Shown: positions 2,841 through 17,013 of the stretch, in pieces
Numbering within the stretch: the stretch's first letter is position 1
How the letters are laid out: each line of letters begins with the position of its first letter
Source of the DNA: a virus
IMG/VR virus record: IMGVR_UViG_3300010354_000661
Coordinates: 1 to 23,774 of that record
Strand: one strand, 5' to 3'
DNA length: 23,774 bases
Position numbers and translations under genes: made by a program
Notes under the pieces: model-generated
The model's database searches: none
Seen by the model: only the letters and a program-made list of their open reading frames with translations
Told to the model about the DNA's origin: nothing

Positions 2841-3128
2841 ATGCTTGAGAAGATCCCCATTGAGCATTCGTCCGATGTCCGCGTTGCGATCCTGTCCGCG
2901 CTGCATGAGCGCGAAGCAACCCCCTACGGGTTCGCCAAGGCGGTAGCCGATGCCGGGATCACGGCGCACCACACGGTCGATGCCGTGCTGGCCCCACCGG
3001 AATCGTTGACGCATTCCGTGCCCACCCTGCCCACCGCGCTGGCCCTGCTGGATGCGGCGGGCTACGACCTGATCGCCGTGCGCCGCCGGGAAGGCATCAA
3101 GATCACCGCCAAGAGGAGGAAGGGATGA
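2841..3128 (+). CDS. Small HTH-like protein, possible regulator
   Basis: This 95-residue protein starts at ATG 2841 with no ribosome site but a TACAAT box six bases before the start. Residues 28-50 (PYGFAKAVADAGITAHHTVD and onward) resemble an XRE/Cro-like helix-turn-helix: 'xxFAKAVxxAGI' followed by a second helix. After this comes a segment similar to the usual C-terminal helix (TLPTALALLDAAGYDLIAV). The tail is basic (RRREGIKITAKRRKG), fitting nucleic-acid contact. It is the first gene of its transcription unit and overlaps the methyltransferase gene by ATGA. It could regulate that gene or the packaging genes, but the HTH call is by pattern only. Confidence 0.6.
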   Translation: MLEKIPIEHSSDVRVAILSALHEREATPYGFAKAVADAGITAHHTVDAVLAPPESLTHSVPTLPTALALLDAAGYDLIAVRRREGIKITAKRRKG

Positions 3129-4324
3129 CCACCGGACTGTCAATGACCGTGCAGGACGTTGCCATTGCCGACCTGCATTTTGATCCAGCCAACGTCCGCA
3201 AGCACCCCGAAGAGAACCTCGCAGCCCTGAAAGGCTCCTTGGAACGCTTCGGCCAGCAAAAGCCCATCGTGGTGGATGCCAAGAACGTGGTCATCGCGGG
3301 CAACGGCTTCCTCGCCGCCGCCAAGGCGCTGGGATGGAAAACCGTCAAGGTGGTGCGGTCCAACCTGATGGGCGCAGAAGCGACCGCCTACGCCATTGCG
3401 GACAACCGTACCGCCGAACTGGCGGAATGGGACGAAGCCGCGCTGCAACAGCAACTTGCCGCCATTGCCATTCAGGATGCGGAACTGCTTGCAGCCACGG
3501 GCTTTGACGAAAAGGAACTGGCGCGACTGGCCGCACAGGCAATGCCGGAAGTGACCGAGGACGAAGTACCCGAGCCGCCCGCCGAACCCATCACCCAAAC
3601 CGGCGACCTATGGATGCTTGGCACCCACCGCCTGCTTTGCGGGGACAGCACCAAGGCCGAGGATGTGAAACGACTTACCGATGGCAAGCGTGTAGATCTC
3701 ATGCTGACCGACCCGCCGTACAACGTGGACTACACGGGCGGCACCAAGGACGCGCTCAAAATTGCCAACGACAGCATGAGCGACTCCGACTTCCGCAAAT
3801 TCCTCACGGCCTGTTTCAGCGCTGCGTTCGATGCCATGAAGCCCGGAGCAGCCTTTTACGTTTGGCACGCCGACAGCGAGGGCTACAACTTCCGTGGCGC
3901 AATCCGCGATTGCAAACAGTCCGTGCGCCAATGCCTGATCTGGGCAAAGAACGCTCTTGTCATGGGACGGCAGGATTACCAATGGCAGCATGAACCATGC
4001 CTGTACGGATGGAAAGACGGCGCTTCCCACGGTTGGTACAGCGACCGGAAGCAGACCACGCTGCTGCATTTCGACCGCCCCAAGCGCAGCGAGGAACACC
4101 CGACGATGAAGCCCGTGGCCATGTTCGCCTATCTGCTGGGCAACAGCACCGCGCCGCAAGGGATTGTGTACGACCCGTTTCTCGGCAGCGGCACCACCCT
4201 GATCGCCGCCGAACAACTTGGCCGCACCTGCTACGGCATGGAGATCAGCCCTGCGTACTGCGACGTGATCGTCAAGCGATGGGAAACGCTCACAGGATTG
4301 ACAGCCACGCGGGAAAAGGTGTAA
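3125..4324 (+). CDS. ParB-like/DNA N6-adenine or N4-cytosine methyltransferase fusion
   Basis: This 399-residue protein starts at ATG 3125 after a GAGGAGG-type ribosome site; the ATG at 3143 is a weaker alternative. The first ~100 residues are a ParB/Srx-like domain: IADLHFDPANVRKHPEENLA, then VIAGNGFLAAAKALGWKTV and later YAIADNRTAELAEWD. The C-terminal ~230 residues are an S-adenosylmethionine-dependent amino-methyltransferase. Motif IV DPPY lies at residues 196-199 and the SAM-binding motif DPFLGSGTTLIAAEQLGR begins at residue 350, which is the beta-class order. It would methylate phage DNA at an exocyclic amino group. A role in protection from host restriction is a reasonable inference. 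Its place directly before terminase suggests modification near the time of packaging. Specificity (adenine versus cytosine, target site) cannot be read from sequence. Confidence 0.9.
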   Translation: MTTGLSMTVQDVAIADLHFDPANVRKHPEENLAALKGSLERFGQQKPIVVDAKNVVIAGNGFLAAAKALGWKTVKVVRSNLMGAEATAYAIADNRTAELAEWDEAALQQQLAAIAIQDAELLAATGFDEKELARLAAQAMPEVTEDEVPEPPAEPITQTGDLWMLGTHRLLCGDSTKAEDVKRLTDGKRVDLMLTDPPYNVDYTGGTKDALKIANDSMSDSDFRKFLTACFSAAFDAMKPGAAFYVWHADSEGYNFRGAIRDCKQSVRQCLIWAKNALVMGRQDYQWQHEPCLYGWKDGASHGWYSDRKQTTLLHFDRPKRSEEHPTMKPVAMFAYLLGNSTAPQGIVYDPFLGSGTTLIAAEQLGRTCYGMEISPAYCDVIVKRWETLTGLTATREKV

Positions 4325-9439: not shown

Positions 9440-9452
9440 TAGGATGAATGAC
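9440..9452 (+). promoter_or_regulatory. TANNNT leaderless-type element before the mosaic gene
   Basis: TAGGAT at 9440-9445 is followed by seven bases and ATG 9453. The hexamer overlaps the alternative start ATG 9444. There is no Shine-Dalgarno site and no clear -35. It is listed because the same arrangement precedes 2841 and 6166. Confidence 0.3.
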
Positions 9453-10778
9453 ATGAGCGACATTCGCAAGGCAATCATGGAACGTCTTGGCTGGGCGGCA
9501 AATCCCGAGTCTTTCGGCGCGAAGGCGAAGATGTCGAAGTGGGAATCGACCCTGACCAAGAAGAATGGCAAGGTGATTGAGGAATACACGGCACGCCTGA
9601 AGGGTGGGCTGTTCATGATCGAAGTTGGCGATGGTGCTGGCGGCCCGTACGCCATTTTGTATCGGTGGGATGACCTTCGTGGCGCGGAGCGCATCGCTTC
9701 TGGCAACTTGCAGTCACTTATGCGGCAGGCCGAAAGCATGGGCGCAAAAGAGGCGCGTGGAGTGGCCGCTGTTGAGCGGCTTGCAAACTACTCCCGCCCC
9801 GGCGCGAAGGCGAAGATGGGGGCAAGCATTTCTCGCGGTATTGATCCCAAGAAAGGCGGTCAATGGATCACCGGAACTTGGGACGGTGGCACTTGGGGCG
9901 CGCTGGTGTTTTCAGAGCCATCCGAGGCATACGGAATCCCGGAGTTCCCGCACATTAGCAAGCTCTACATGAACCCAAAGGGAATGCCGGGGATGCGCGA
10001 CGTGGTGGTGAACTACGACCGAGGCTGGGATGTGCGTCCGAATACCACGGAACTCAAGAAGGGCTATCAAGAGATCGCCAGCGCGGCAACCGCAGCGGCA
10101 AAGAAGGCAGCGGCGGCTGGTTGGTATTCCCGCCCCGGCGCGAAGGCGAAGATGGCCGAGTCGGCCAATGGATCGCAGCAGAATCAGGCAGTCGAAGCCT
10201 ATGGCGTAAAGGGCATGAAGAGTACGCCGTGGCGAAAGGTATTCAAGAACAACGCAGCGCTCCAAAAGTGGGTGGAAGCAAATGACGCAGAAGTGCATGG
10301 CACCCGTCCTGCAAGTGGCGTGTTCTCCCGCCCCGGCGCGAAGGCGAAGTTTGCCATCAACGTGGCAAAGATCACCAAACTGTGGGATGACGCAGGACAT
10401 CCGCTCGACAATCGCCAACTCGATGCGCTTCGGCAAGTCGCTGCTCGTATCTACGACATCGAGAATGACCTGCTGCCAAACATGACATATCGAAGGCAGC
10501 GCATTGAGCGCGAACTGCAACTGGCGTCCGCTCGGATCGCGGATGGCAATACGCCATCAAGCGTGCTGGCCGATCTGGTGAAGTTGGAGGCTGCTGCGCA
10601 GTCATTCGACCGCCCCGGCGCGAAGGCGACCGCAGCAGCCGAGAAGCCCGGACAGAAGATCATGTCCGAGTCTGATCCTGCCGTGTCCCGCAAGATCAAG
10701 AAGTTGATGGACGAGGGCTACCCGCAGAAGCAGGCGGTCGCCATCGCGCTGGATATGCAGCGAAGGGGTGAACTGTGA
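9444..10778 (+). CDS. Mosaic multi-module protein joined by SRPGAKAK linkers
   Basis: The product is 444 residues from ATG 9444 (441 from ATG 9453, which better fits the upstream TAGGAT box and a shared MS-x-RK N-terminus). Five linkers, consensus [YF]SRPGAKAKM, start at residues 24 (partial, FGAKAKM), 116, 228, 294 and 388. They separate modules of unlike sequence. Module 1 has a beta-rich patch (EYTARLKGGLFMIEVGDGAG). Module 2 includes GQWITGTWDGGTWGALVF. Module 3 contains AYGVKGMKSTPWRKVFKN. Module 4 is helical (ITKLWDDAGHPLDNRQLDAL). Module 5 ends with KKLMDEGYPQKQAVAIALDM, a motif that recurs in small phage proteins. Two sample 60-base lines give 53-55% G+C against about 72% for a line of the MuF gene. 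It lies between MuF and protease, so it may be a virion or procapsid component. No activity can be assigned. Confidence 0.8.
   Translation: MNDMSDIRKAIMERLGWAANPESFGAKAKMSKWESTLTKKNGKVIEEYTARLKGGLFMIEVGDGAGGPYAILYRWDDLRGAERIASGNLQSLMRQAESMGAKEARGVAAVERLANYSRPGAKAKMGASISRGIDPKKGGQWITGTWDGGTWGALVFSEPSEAYGIPEFPHISKLYMNPKGMPGMRDVVVNYDRGWDVRPNTTELKKGYQEIASAATAAAKKAAAAGWYSRPGAKAKMAESANGSQQNQAVEAYGVKGMKSTPWRKVFKNNAALQKWVEANDAEVHGTRPASGVFSRPGAKAKFAINVAKITKLWDDAGHPLDNRQLDALRQVAARIYDIENDLLPNMTYRRQRIERELQLASARIADGNTPSSVLADLVKLEAAAQSFDRPGAKATAAAEKPGQKIMSESDPAVSRKIKKLMDEGYPQKQAVAIALDMQRRGEL
9513..10629 (+). repeat. Five dispersed in-frame linker repeats
   Basis: Copies lie at 9513-9533 (shortened), 9789-9818, 10125-10154, 10323-10349 and 10605-10629. 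The core CGCCCCGGCGCGAAGGCGA (19 bases) is identical in the last four, and the first keeps its 3' part, GGCGCGAAGGCGA. Copies two to four are identical over 24 bases, including all third codon positions. Spacing between linkers is 92, 112, 66 and 94 codons. All copies are in the same reading frame and the intervening DNA is not related. Confidence 0.9.
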
Positions 10779-11956
10779 CCCTTGCCGCGCCCGGATCGCA
10801 CGAAGTCATTGACAGCGGCGACAAGGTGACCGTGCGCCGCGTGGAACTGTTCATGGCATTCGACCCCACCATTGACGATGGCGAGGCCGACCCGGAACTT
10901 CGCAAGTTCGACAACGACCGCCTCCGCAGCATCGTCCAGCACACGCGCAAGCACATGGCACGCGGCTCCTTCCCCCGCGTGGTCATCATGCATGAGAAGG
11001 ACGGCAAGGAGCCCAAGAGCGCCGTTGGACGAATCCCCGCAATTGCTTACGAAGAACGCAATGGCGTCGGATACATTGTCGGAGACATGGAAATGGGGAA
11101 GGGCATCTTCGACAAACTCATTGCCACCAATGCGTTCCCGCGTCGGTCGGCGGAAATCTGGTCGGAGTCGGATCACCTGTCGGAGATTGCCCTGCTGGGG
11201 CGGGAGACTCCCCGCAGACCGCTCCCCGACACGCACTTCGCCCATTCGGGCGACAAGATCGTCTTTTCAAAGTCCAACCACGACCTCGCCGGGGTTGGTG
11301 GAGGGCTCAACACATTTGTCCCGGCGGAAATCAAGGAGGAGGCCAGCATGGCATCCGATGACATCCGCAAGGAGATGGAGGCCATGAAGTGCGCCATTTC
11401 CGACCTCGCGGACATGATGAAGAAGAAGTTTGCCGACCCGGCAGACGAGAAGGTGACGGCTGAGGCTGAGGAGGAGGCCGACGTTCACATCGACATCGGC
11501 TCCCACGATGCCGAGGCTCCCGGTGCGACCGCCGACATCGAAGGTGCGGAAGCCGAGGAGGAGGACGGCGAGGAGGAAGTTCTTGCCATGCGCGAGACCT
11601 ACAGCCTCCGGTCGGAGAACGCCCGCCTGAAGGCCCGCTTTGCCCGTCTGGAATCGGAGATGAAGCGCGAGAAGTTTTCGCGTGAGATCGACCAGATGGC
11701 CGCTGAGGGCTACCGCATTCCCGAGGCCCAGCGGGACAACCTGATCGCGCAACTTGACGCTGCCCGCGATCCTGTATCGCTGCTGGAGTCGTGGCGGGAA
11801 CTGTTCTCCCGTGATCCCATCGGCACCAAGATTGACATGGGCCGTGCGGCGCTTCCCAAGAGCGCCGAAACCGTGGATGTTGCTTCGCTGGTGCGCGAGT
11901 TCGCTGGCAAGCCGTCCGAGTTCACCAAGGCCATCAACAGCCGCATCAAGCGGTAA
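10775..11956 (+). CDS. Prohead protease with C-terminal scaffold region (Mu gpI-like)
   Basis: This 393-residue product starts at GTG 10775, overlapping the previous stop. Residues 1-160 form the protease-like domain: RRVELFMAFDPTIDDGEADP, PKSAVGRIPAIAYEERNGVG, then AFPRRSAEIWSESDHLSEIA (with S125) and LLGRETPRRPLP. This recalls the '...RSxE...L..vALLG..P' signature of Mu I-like proteases. After a linker comes a helical, very acidic scaffold region (EAEEEADVHIDI; AEAEEEDGEEEVLAM), a coiled coil (SLRSENARLKARFARLESEM) and a conserved-looking tail. Such proteins cleave scaffold and capsid during maturation. The catalytic residues cannot be fixed from this sequence, so the class is inferred from pattern and position before the capsid genes. 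Confidence 0.78.
   Translation: MTLAAPGSHEVIDSGDKVTVRRVELFMAFDPTIDDGEADPELRKFDNDRLRSIVQHTRKHMARGSFPRVVIMHEKDGKEPKSAVGRIPAIAYEERNGVGYIVGDMEMGKGIFDKLIATNAFPRRSAEIWSESDHLSEIALLGRETPRRPLPDTHFAHSGDKIVFSKSNHDLAGVGGGLNTFVPAEIKEEASMASDDIRKEMEAMKCAISDLADMMKKKFADPADEKVTAEAEEEADVHIDIGSHDAEAPGATADIEGAEAEEEDGEEEVLAMRETYSLRSENARLKARFARLESEMKREKFSREIDQMAAEGYRIPEAQRDNLIAQLDAARDPVSLLESWRELFSRDPIGTKIDMGRAALPKSAETVDVASLVREFAGKPSEFTKAINSRIKR
11348..11956 (+). CDS. Nested in-frame scaffold protein (Mu gpZ / lambda Nu3-like), predicted
   Basis: Inside the protease gene and in its frame, ATG 11348 (Met192) is preceded by AAGGAGGAGG at 11333-11342. This is one of the strongest ribosome sites in the window, with optimal spacing (5-8 bases). 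Translation from here gives 202 residues, MASDDIRKEMEAMKCAISDL onward, without the protease domain but with the acidic and coiled-coil scaffold parts and the shared C-terminus. Mu (I/Z) and lambda (C/Nu3) make their scaffolds in this way from the 3' part of the protease gene. The site itself is seen directly; use as a start is inference. Confidence 0.65.
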   Translation: MASDDIRKEMEAMKCAISDLADMMKKKFADPADEKVTAEAEEEADVHIDIGSHDAEAPGATADIEGAEAEEEDGEEEVLAMRETYSLRSENARLKARFARLESEMKREKFSREIDQMAAEGYRIPEAQRDNLIAQLDAARDPVSLLESWRELFSRDPIGTKIDMGRAALPKSAETVDVASLVREFAGKPSEFTKAINSRIKR

Positions 11957-13990: not shown

Positions 13991-14676
13991 TGGGCCGTTG
14001 GTCCCGCAAGGTCGCCAAGGCGCTACAAAGCCCTGCCGTGCGTCGTGGGATCGCGGAGGCCATTGCGTCCTACGCGCAGCAGCACATCGCCACAGGGGAA
14101 GGACGGGGCGACAGCGGGGAAGCCGCGACGTTCCAGCCCCTCAAGTCGATTTCCACCCAATTCTGGACAAGCCGGAAGCCGAAGGGACTATCAGGAGTTT
14201 CGGAACGGGTGGTCACCAAGGTTCGCAAGCGCAAGCGTGCGGACGGCAGCACGGTAGCGGTCCCGGTCAAGGTGAAGGAGTACTTGGTATCGGGCGCGTC
14301 ATACCGCGAAGGCGGGCAACCGCTGCGCGACACGGGAAACCTTCTTCGGTCGCTGGGTGCCAAGGCTGCGGCGACTGGCCCCGGCACCTTGACAGTCACC
14401 CTGCGCGGTGCCAAGTATGGCATCTACCACGAACGCGGCTTCAGCACGTCCGGTCCCAACTTCATCCCGTTGACGAAGAAGGGCAAGCGAACGCACGCGA
14501 CCGGAGCCAACCCGGCATCGGAAGGGCTCCAGCGCGGCAAGGACTACACGATGGCATGGGGCGGCGTCACCGTTCCCAAGCGCCCGTTCCTCGTACCGAC
14601 GCAAGACGAATGGGTGGAGATCGGCAAAACGATTAGACTAGGGCTGGCAATGACCCTCAATGGGAGGCTTCGATAA
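13990..14676 (+). CDS. gpG-like virion morphogenesis / tail completion protein
   Basis: This 228-residue product starts at ATG 13990, overlapping the previous stop by one base (TGATG), a junction used repeatedly here; GTG 13987 is an alternative. The N-terminus is very basic (RWSRKVAKALQSPAVRRGIA). The middle has EGGQPLRDTGNLLRSLGAKA, and further on YGIYHERGF, then KRPFLVPTQDEWVEIGKTIR. 'L.dTG.L..Sl', 'yA.iHe.G' and 'RPFL' are the marks of the phage virion morphogenesis (Mu gpG) and HK97 gp10-type families. A longer insert between RGF and RPFL, with basic text (LTKKGKRTHATGANPASEGL), is not usual in short members. Its role is to complete the head-tail interface. Confidence 0.84.
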   Translation: MGRWSRKVAKALQSPAVRRGIAEAIASYAQQHIATGEGRGDSGEAATFQPLKSISTQFWTSRKPKGLSGVSERVVTKVRKRKRADGSTVAVPVKVKEYLVSGASYREGGQPLRDTGNLLRSLGAKAAATGPGTLTVTLRGAKYGIYHERGFSTSGPNFIPLTKKGKRTHATGANPASEGLQRGKDYTMAWGGVTVPKRPFLVPTQDEWVEIGKTIRLGLAMTLNGRLR

Positions 14677-15158
14677 TGGCAAGCACGATCAATGTTTCCG
14701 GTCCAACTAGAGTCATGGTCAACACCGGAGGCGGGTACGTCGAACTTGGTTTCTGCGACAACGACAACCTGCCGTCCGTGACCTTCACCGATCACGTCCA
14801 CGAAATCAAGACCAGCGCCAGCGGCAACGCGCCCGAGGAAATGGTGGTGCAGGGCGTGACCGCCACGATCACCGTGACGCTGGTGAAGTGGGATGCAAGC
14901 GTGTGGGCAAGCCTGATTGCCGCCCAGCGCGGCGCGGCCTACAACGCCACGGTTGGCAAGATGCTCTACGACAGCGGCAGCACGTTCGGCGTGCAATTGG
15001 ACCCGACCATCGCTGGCCGACCCGGCTACACGTTCAGCACTTGCTACCTGATGAACGACACCGGGGACGCGAACTTCGGCAACGTGGAACGCCGCCTGAC
15101 GATCACGTTCCGCGCCACGCAGAACCCGCAGACGCTTGTGCTTTGCACTTACTCTTGA
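14676..15158 (+). CDS. Probable major tail (tube) protein
   Basis: This 160-residue protein starts at ATG 14676 (TAATG overlap) with TGGGAGG at 14661-14667. It is predicted all-beta with few charges: RVMVNTGGGYVELGFCDNDN, then VHEIKTSASGNAPEEMVVQG, then VTATITVTLVKWDASVWASL, and ERRLTITFRATQNPQTLVLC near the end. The segment around 'V.G....I...L..wd.s....l' suits the tube fold of siphophage tail proteins. It lies directly before the frameshifting tail chaperone genes, the usual order. I recognise no diagnostic signature, so the assignment is from position and fold character. Confidence 0.65.
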   Translation: MASTINVSGPTRVMVNTGGGYVELGFCDNDNLPSVTFTDHVHEIKTSASGNAPEEMVVQGVTATITVTLVKWDASVWASLIAAQRGAAYNATVGKMLYDSGSTFGVQLDPTIAGRPGYTFSTCYLMNDTGDANFGNVERRLTITFRATQNPQTLVLCTYS

Positions 15159-15165
15159 GGAACCA

Positions 15166-15429
15166 ATGGCGATCAACCTGACCGATGACGATGACCCGCT
15201 GCTGTTCAATCTGTCCTTGCCAGAAGGCCAGTTGGTCCTGCAATGGGCCGAGGTGCTGGCGGCGCTGCAAAAGGCCAACGTGACGGGCGCACCGGAAGTC
15301 GGGCAAGTTGCCGATGCCATCCGGCGCGTTGCCCGGTCCAAGGACGTGGCGGCGTGCTGCTCCGATGAACGGCTGTTTGCCGCCTTTGCACGCATCGGGA
15401 AGGCTGCGGAAGCGTCGGGAAACGTCTAA
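15166..15429 (+). CDS. Tail assembly chaperone, short form (gpG-like)
   Basis: This 87-residue product starts at ATG 15166, supported by TTGAGGA at 15154-15160; an upstream in-frame start has none. An acidic N-terminus (MAINLTDDDDPLLFNLSLPE) is followed by helices (LQWAEVLAALQKANVTGAPE; VGQVADAIRRVARSKDVAAC). It lies between the tube and tape measure genes, where lambda has G and G-T. The frame stops at 15427-15429, four bases after a GGGAAAC heptamer. Tail assembly chaperones bind the tape measure protein and guide tube polymerisation. They are not in the finished virion. The protein sequence alone is not diagnostic; the frameshift signal makes the call. Confidence 0.75.
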   Translation: MAINLTDDDDPLLFNLSLPEGQLVLQWAEVLAALQKANVTGAPEVGQVADAIRRVARSKDVAACCSDERLFAAFARIGKAAEASGNV

Positions 15430-15680
15430 GGGGAGTCGCCATCTTCCTCGCGGAGTATGGGCGGCTCCCGTCCGAGTTCGACAGCGATACGGCAATGGGA
15501 CTTGCGCTCAACATCCCCGCGCTGGAAGCCCGTAGGACGCTGGCGATGGCTCAGGCCATCTCTATCGCGTTCGGTGACGAGAACGTAACCGAAGTGGCAA
15601 TCCGTCAGGCGACTGGCGACGAGGCGTTGGCGTATCAGGCCAAGGTCCGCATGATGCATTCCAAGGCGGTGCAGCAATGA
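15166..15680 (+). CDS. Tail assembly chaperone, frameshift fusion (gpG-T-like)
   Basis: A -1 shift at 15417-15423 joins the first 86 residues of the short form to 85 residues in the other frame, giving 171 residues. The second part starts RLRGVAIFLAEYGRLPSEFD and ends AYQAKVRMMHSKAVQQ. It has no in-frame stop from 15423 to 15678 and no own start: the first ATG (15495) lacks a ribosome site. The second frame contains helix ALEARRTLAMAQAISIAFGD and Q-A-T-G-D-E-A. In lambda-like phages the T extension recruits the tube protein while the G part binds the tape measure. The stop overlaps the next start as ATGA. Confidence 0.8.
15417..15469 (+). promoter_or_regulatory. -1 programmed ribosomal frameshift signal
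   Basis: The heptamer GGGAAAC at 15417-15423 is in the correct phase, G GGA AAC, for X-XXY-YYZ slippage. Seven bases later a hairpin begins. Arms 15431-15440 (GGGAGTCGCC) and 15460-15469 (GGCGGCTCCC) pair over 10 positions (nine Watson-Crick, one U-G) around a 19-base loop, which can form a small inner CUC/GAG stem. The zero-frame stop TAA (15427-15429) lies in the spacer. Lambda uses GGGAAAG at the same gene position. Confidence 0.88.
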
Positions 15681-16138
15681 CCGTTTCCAACGCAACGGTT
15701 TGGAACGCGCTGCGCGACGAGGTGCAGGAGTGGATGTCGGAGAACGGGTACGGCACGCAGGTCTATCTGACCGAAGCACCCGTGGACGAGGTGACGGCGC
15801 AGTACGCGGTCCAAATCATCCCGAAGGGCGACACGTCGATGCACCCTCGCAGCGGCGTCGGCTTGATGAACAGCGACATTGACATCGTGATCTGGTGGCG
15901 GAACCTGATGGACCCAACCACCACGGCTACGGAACGCATCGCCGGGGAGTTGGGCATTGAACCGTTCATTGATGGGCTTCGCAAGTTGCTGATACAGAAC
16001 GACCTTGGTGGCCTGTTGACCATTGCCTTGATGTGGCGCAACGGTGGACAGGTGGAGCAGGTGACGGATCATCCGGGCTGGATGCGTGGGACGGAAACGT
16101 TCTCTTGCGCCTTTGAGATCCCGTGGAGCGTGACGTAA
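15677..16138 (+). CDS. Tail terminator/completion-like protein
   Basis: This 153-residue protein starts at ATG 15677 (ATGA overlap). The text is mixed alpha/beta: an N-terminal helix (ATVWNALRDEVQEWMSENGY), strands (AQYAVQIIPKGD; SDIDIVIWWRN), then ERIAGELGIEPFIDGLRKLL, then ALMWRNGGQVEQVTDHPGWM, and last a strand TFSCAFEIPW. The 'short helix, v-v-W strand, long helix, G-W, f-f strand' layout is that of small tail terminator proteins (gpU and related). These cap the tube. Here the gene comes after the chaperones rather than before the tube gene, which is less usual. The family is inferred from layout and position. Confidence 0.52.
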   Translation: MTVSNATVWNALRDEVQEWMSENGYGTQVYLTEAPVDEVTAQYAVQIIPKGDTSMHPRSGVGLMNSDIDIVIWWRNLMDPTTTATERIAGELGIEPFIDGLRKLLIQNDLGGLLTIALMWRNGGQVEQVTDHPGWMRGTETFSCAFEIPWSVT

Positions 16139-17013
16139 TGGCCGAGGATCTTGGAAAACTCATCATTGACATCAACGAAGGCGGCGGCGCGGGCGTCGGC
16201 CCAGCGGGCACGCCTTCGTCCGGTCCTGCGCCCCGGCGCGTTGGCTTTGATCCGCGAGAGCAATTCAACCGGATGGTGTCGGGGCTTGAAACGCGGCGCG
16301 AGTCGGCGCGGGAGTTGGCGTCGTTCATTCGCGCCCCCACGCTGGCGAACGTCGGGCAGATCATCGGTCCGGGGAGCAGCACGGCTGGTCTGATGGGCAA
16401 GTTGCTGCCCGTGATGGGTCCGCTTGCGCTTGGCATCGCTGCGGTGGGATCGGCAGCGTCCATTGCCATTTCGGCCCTGAAAGGCGTTCGCAACATGATG
16501 CGGGCGCTGGGCGAGGAAATCGGGGGCGTGTCGCCGCAGATTCAGATGGCCAAGGCGTACGAACAGATGTTGAAGTTCCGCACGGCCATGCAAGTGAATC
16601 GGGAGTCGGGGGGCATCATTGCACGGCAAATGCGTGCCGATGCCCAAATTGAAGCGCAACTTCTGCGCTTGCGATCCAAGATCGTGGCAGAGTTCGGCCC
16701 GCTGGTCACGGCAGCCACAGCCATGCTCATCAAGGCCGTGGATGGCATGATTACGGCGTTCACCAAATTGATGGAATGGCTGGGCGGCATGGGCAACGTG
16801 CTGAAGAAGATTGGATCGTTCATGGCCAGTTACGCGCCGCTGTTTGGCGTGTTGGGTCCATCGGGCATGGCATTGGCGGCGCAATTGGGGCCGCTGCTGT
16901 ACAAGTTGGGAGTGGACGTGGAAGGCATCAAGCGCAACACCACCCCAACCGGAAAGTTTGAAACGAACGACTCCTTCATTGCAGACCTGAAGATGATGGG
17001 AGTGGTCATCTAA
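16138..17013 (+). CDS. Short tape measure-like protein
   Basis: This 291-residue product starts at ATG 16138 (TAATG overlap), with GTGGAG at 16123-16128; the GTG at 16123 is an alternative. A disordered Gly/Pro/Arg-rich N-terminus is followed by helix REQFNRMVSGLETRRESARE. A hydrophobic stretch comes at residues 86-114 (MGKLLPVMGPLALGIAAVGS onward), then a long amphipathic helix (KAYEQMLKFRTAMQVNRESG). Two more hydrophobic parts lie about residues 187-205 (GPLVTAATAMLIKAVDGMI) and 225-260. Position after the chaperone pair and hydrophobic-helix composition suggest the tape measure. It is much shorter than siphophage norms (often 700-1500 residues), so the tail would be short, or this may be a non-tape-measure membrane-active tail protein. 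Confidence 0.6.
   Translation: MAEDLGKLIIDINEGGGAGVGPAGTPSSGPAPRRVGFDPREQFNRMVSGLETRRESARELASFIRAPTLANVGQIIGPGSSTAGLMGKLLPVMGPLALGIAAVGSAASIAISALKGVRNMMRALGEEIGGVSPQIQMAKAYEQMLKFRTAMQVNRESGGIIARQMRADAQIEAQLLRLRSKIVAEFGPLVTAATAMLIKAVDGMITAFTKLMEWLGGMGNVLKKIGSFMASYAPLFGVLGPSGMALAAQLGPLLYKLGVDVEGIKRNTTPTGKFETNDSFIADLKMMGVVI

Follow-up and report, generated by a model that had tools for sequence, protein, structure and literature searches.

A conserved slippery heptamer and a covarying RNA stem point to programmed -1 frameshifting in a candidate tail assembly chaperone gene of uncultured phages

In an uncultured-virus record of 23,774 bases (IMGVR_UViG_3300010354_000661, positions 1 to 23,774), called the window hereafter, the heptamer GGGAAAC near the end of a short open reading frame is very probably the place where ribosomes that translate a tail assembly chaperone gene are programmed to slip into the -1 frame. 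This reading draws on the anatomy of the site, its conservation among relatives, selection on coding sequence in both halves of the gene, covariation in a downstream RNA stem and the gene neighborhood, from which we infer the slippage itself, its efficiency and the chaperone role of the products. The locus is placed between a tail gene (14676-15158) and a gene for a 153-aa protein beginning at 15677.

All the elements of the site lie on the plus strand. The zero-frame open reading frame (15166-15429), preceded by GAGGA and opening with an ATG codon, encodes the 87-aa G-like half, a candidate tail assembly chaperone. Near its end, the slippery heptamer GGGAAAC (15417-15423) is in phase with the ATG at 15166 and is therefore read as G GGA AAC. 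It is followed by a 7-nt spacer, GTCTAAG (15424-15430; 6-7 nt in relatives), which includes the zero-frame stop codon TAA (15427-15429), located 3 nt past the heptamer. Downstream, a 5' arm, GGGAGUCGCC (15431-15440), and a 3' arm, GGCGGCUCCC (15460-15469), identified by folding and by covariation, form a stimulatory stem of 10 bp, one of them G-U, with a minimum free energy of -25.7 kcal/mol (z = -2.9, with 2 of 200 shuffled sequences folding as well). From its opening at 15369, the -1 frame is devoid of ATG, GTG and TTG codons before 15495. From the slip point onward (15423-15680), it encodes the T-like half, delimited by its conservation and coding pattern, with 85 aa plus a stop codon fused after Asn86, and the predicted -1 fusion is a 171-aa protein with an Asn-Arg junction, ending at 15680. 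The first-pass annotation had described a GGGAAAC heptamer in this phase, a 7-base spacer holding the TAA and a 10-bp hairpin, and the coordinates and spacer length proved right, as did the 85 open codons of the -1 frame and the product sizes of 87 and 171 residues. Its statement that the second frame has no start of its own holds for codons 1-24 of the second half, while an in-frame ATG does occur at 15495 as codon 25.

When the window is considered by itself, neither the number of heptamers nor the length of the open frame exceeds what chance would give: GGGAAAC is present in four copies versus 3.4 expected, and an 85-codon open frame is found at 36% of random window positions. An in-phase XXX(AAA/TTT)Z heptamer within the last 10 codons is obtained in 0.7% of codon shuffles. 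What sets the site apart from chance is its conservation, for each of the 25 distinct site sequences, the window among them, has kept it. These were assembled from loci retrieved by a search with the capsid protein (42 loci) and with a profile built from seven fusions (79 loci from viral contigs), which together gave 100 loci with both halves, counting the window and some contigs fetched twice; of the 25 distinct sequences, one is truncated and 24 are full-length. As a single query, the fusion protein found no match in viral contigs or cultured phages, the fusion profile found none in bacterial genomes, and the 612-aa product of a downstream gene, used as a query for relatives, found none either.

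Across these 100 loci, the second half is invariably in the -1 frame, and the first half always ends with an in-phase heptamer, either GGGAAAC (73 loci) or GGGAAAA (27 loci). The zero-frame stop directly follows the heptamer in 91 loci and lies one codon (3 nt) further in nine, including the window, a distance that changed once on a tree inferred from five neighboring proteins. GGA represents 12.5% of the glycine codons and AAA 13% of the lysine codons in this phage group; both being rare, codon choice at the slip site is constrained. Among the 24 representatives, the zero-frame ORF shares 39-60% identity with that of the window and the -1 half 46-61%. No Shine-Dalgarno-like stimulator is claimed upstream of the heptamer, since the common AAGG falls within a conserved Lys-Ala coding stretch and is itself missing in several relatives. 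Another in-phase GGGAAAC of the window (14334-14340), located in the neck gene and associated with a 98-codon open -1 frame, was rejected as a further frameshift site; it is probably there by chance because it is not conserved, relatives often keeping Gly-Asn at this place but mostly by means of other codons.

Many, but not all, frameshift sites of the lambda G/GT type have a stimulatory RNA structure downstream. Here, the 24 full-length site sequences could be aligned without gaps, and this alignment supports the stem. Stem cells are paired in 83% of cases, versus 74% after shuffling of the partners and 47-69% when the register is slid, and the covariation score of 0.303 was reached in none of 500 shuffles (mean 0.136, sd 0.017). 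Three pairs of the lower stem vary on both sides. By parsimony, and with positions numbered from the first base past the heptamer, both-sided changes occurred three times at pair 10-44 and once at pair 12-42; in one clade, the arms read GGCATCC and GGATGCC at the place of GGGAGTC and GGCTCCC in the window. The upper stem is looser, column pair 23-45 forming in 6 of the 24 sequences, and one relative (L019) prefers a different fold. A pseudoknot between the loop and downstream sequence was also considered and rejected, since the best candidate was found in only 7 of the 24 sequences and none was conserved. With the slip site and the frame relation kept in all relatives that have both halves, and with a stem that covaries, the initial interpretation of the locus as a probable -1 frameshift is supported.

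The neighborhood is that of a tail gene cluster. Immediately upstream, the gene at 14676-15158 (plus strand) encodes the major tail tube protein: the tail tube family PF25681 matches 20 of 24 family members (best E-value 2e-7), and the structural model (pLDDT 83) matches phage tail tube proteins, lambda gpV and the tube protein of a gene transfer agent included, with Z-scores of 9-11 (9.3 for lambda gpV). Compared by sequence profile with the PDB, this protein gave no meaningful match. Downstream, on the same strand, comes the gene for the 153-aa protein (15677-16138), which is conserved in 23 relatives (45-69% identity) and has no match in PHROGs or the PDB, and then a 296-aa tape-measure candidate (16123-17013). 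The latter is found at the same place in 20 relatives, in which it spans 251-348 aa with conserved ends and a variable middle; PHROG tape-measure matches to this family are scattered and weak, so that its assignment, based on its place and on these matches, is that of a candidate. At 0.15 nm per residue, these lengths suggest tails of about 38-52 nm, which is short for a siphophage. The first-pass annotation cited a position between tube and tape-measure genes for lambda and many siphophages; here the tube gene is directly adjacent on the upstream side, and on the downstream side one gene separates the locus from the tape-measure candidate.

By sequence, the two halves resemble no known family. 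Searches of Pfam and PHROGs with both halves and with the 24 members of the G-half alignment gave no useful match, hhalign comparisons of both halves with lambda G and T gave probabilities under 1%, neither half aligned with the proteins of the Burkholderia phage KL1, and the sequence profile of the G half found no meaningful match in the PDB. The structural model of the G half (pLDDT 86.6) consists of two beta strands followed by helices. Among viral proteins, the fold most similar to it is that of a protein without a name (E-value 2.5e-3, TM-score 0.78), and annotated tail assembly chaperones are among its matches at a weak level (E-values 0.5-2, TM-scores 0.43-0.55). Compared by fold with the PDB, the G half gave only helical proteins such as histones (Z-scores up to 4.4), which were set aside as unspecific. 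The locus appears to work like lambda G/GT; by sequence, no homology with the lambda proteins was detected.

One may ask whether the second half is made by ribosomes that have slipped or as a separate gene begun inside the -1 frame, at the ATG at 15495 or elsewhere, by reinitiation or with a ribosome binding site of its own. The ATG of codon 25 (15495-15497 in the window) is kept in 99 of the 100 loci, it is preceded by a Shine-Dalgarno-like stretch in 12 of the 24 representatives, and some relatives have starts further upstream in the -1 frame, such as a GTG at +18 in 17 loci. Yet the -1 half has no conserved start at its beginning, this ATG being the first conserved one, and the residues of the second half with the highest conservation, namely the invariant F8, Y12, G13, R14, P16, F19 and D20, precede it, so that an internal product cannot explain this upstream part. 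Moreover, 45 of the 100 loci, including the window, have no start before codon 8, no start position is common to all, nothing resembling a Shine-Dalgarno sequence precedes 15495 in the window, and an internal start would leave the conservation of the heptamer and of the stem unexplained. Over codons 1-24, third positions vary 2.5 times as much as first and second positions, and the -1 frame is free of stop codons while the zero frame always contains one. These sequence patterns support a coding role for the whole of the second half, beginning at the slip point, and a separate gene is a quite improbable substitute for the frameshift; an additional short internal product initiated at codon 25 is possible in some relatives.

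The other explanations concern the origin of the fusion or the function of its products. A frame change within a conserved pair of proteins is what an indel would give, whether by sequencing error or in a decaying gene, but the relatives refute this explanation and leave it with next to no probability: in 100 loci, which come from many metagenomes, the two frames are related in the identical way and the change falls at the same heptamer every time. Slippage of the RNA polymerase rather than of the ribosome could be invoked for the 27 loci in which GGGAAAA provides four consecutive A. Stretches of 3-4 A are much shorter than the runs known for transcriptional slippage, and since the XXXYYYZ form, the codon phase and the downstream stem are all kept, such an origin is highly improbable. 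Less remote, though still unlikely, is that the frameshift is real and that its products fulfill a role in the tail or the head other than chaperoning tape-measure assembly. The lack of a sequence match or strong fold match to known chaperones and the presence of the tape-measure candidate one gene further on would be in line with such a role; against it stand the position right after the tube gene, the type of frameshift, the similarity in fold, albeit weak, with annotated tail assembly chaperones and the fact that a tail gene also lies between chaperone and tape-measure genes in HK97, SPP1 and KL1 (PMC3483164). A tail assembly chaperone gene with a programmed ribosomal frameshift is the reading retained here.

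This reading is reminiscent of phage lambda, in which the chaperone gene is also located between the tube and tape-measure genes and ribosomes that slip by -1 on a GGGAAA heptamer late in the first ORF add a long product to the short one (PMC5009743). In lambda, gpG and gpGT are produced at about 30:1, with gpG as the binding partner of the tape measure and the T part as that of the tube protein (PMC5009743). The two systems differ in that the lambda heptamer is GGGAAAG with the stop 15 nt further on, whereas here GGGAAAC is combined with a stop 3 nt on and with a strong GC-rich stem, and in that the lambda tape-measure gene follows directly, whereas here one gene intervenes. In the gp18/gp19 pair of KL1, an in-phase GGGAAAC stands directly before a TGA stop codon, as the heptamer does before the stop in most of the relatives analyzed here (PMC3483164; checked in the KL1 sequence). 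In contrast, the downstream structure of KL1 is weak (-6.8 kcal/mol) and its tape measure is of about 1270 aa, versus 296 aa for the candidate in the window. GGGAAAC has also been predicted, according to the publications, as the -1 site of the equivalent gene in members of other phage groups, namely Caulobacter phage Colossus (PMC3556154) and the haloarchaeal virus HCTV-1 (PMC5009743), in addition to KL1 (PMC3483164). With Colossus, HCTV-1, KL1, HK97 and SPP1 as precedents, the heptamer, the tight stop and the gene order are each known elsewhere.

A mechanism can be proposed on this basis. Ribosomes would translate the G-like ORF from 15166 until the downstream stem causes them to pause at G GGA AAC. 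A minority would then step back by a single base, pair with GGG AAA and go on reading the -1 frame as far as 15680, leading to the 171-aa fusion, while the remaining ribosomes would stop at the TAA at 15427 and release the 87-aa form. If lambda is a guide, the short product, made in abundance, may bind the tape-measure protein, and the T-like half of the rarer long product may serve to recruit tail tube subunits. Given that the zero-frame stop is held 0-3 nt from the heptamer in this phage group, termination may compete with slippage at a single place, and the ratio of long to short product could vary with the state of the host or with the amount of release factor available, a suggestion that we regard as speculative and rather doubtful.

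Other genes of the window gave further observations. The head-side genes encode a Mu-type portal, a Mu F-like protein, a Gp36-like protein and a terminase, and they are accompanied by genes for the major head protein and a neck protein, after which the tail genes begin. Between the Mu F-like gene and the gene at 10775-11956, a 444-aa protein (9444-10778) contains the motif [SD]RPGAKA(K/T)(M/F) at about residues 120, 232, 298 and 392, with a partial copy near residue 25. Several relatives have 1-6 copies at the same place (six in L044, five in L014, four in L016 and L029), and none is present in the available part of the protein from L010 and L040. The short stretches flanking the motif look as if they had been swapped among relatives. 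The protein seems to be built of modules joined by a fixed linker, which is perhaps a cleavage or packaging signal; no mention of the motif was found in the literature searched. Closer to the start of the window, a 399-aa protein (3125-4324) associates a ParB-like N-terminal domain, below the Pfam cut-off, with an N6/N4 DNA methylase domain.

Frameshifting in tail chaperone genes is itself a familiar device, known in lambda as in many other phages. The present analysis adds to it a family of uncultured phages that searches of cultured-phage and bacterial-genome collections did not find, and the RNA stem of this family comes with support from covariation. For annotators, the gain consists of two proteins without a match in Pfam or PHROGs, which would otherwise be taken for the products of two orphan genes.
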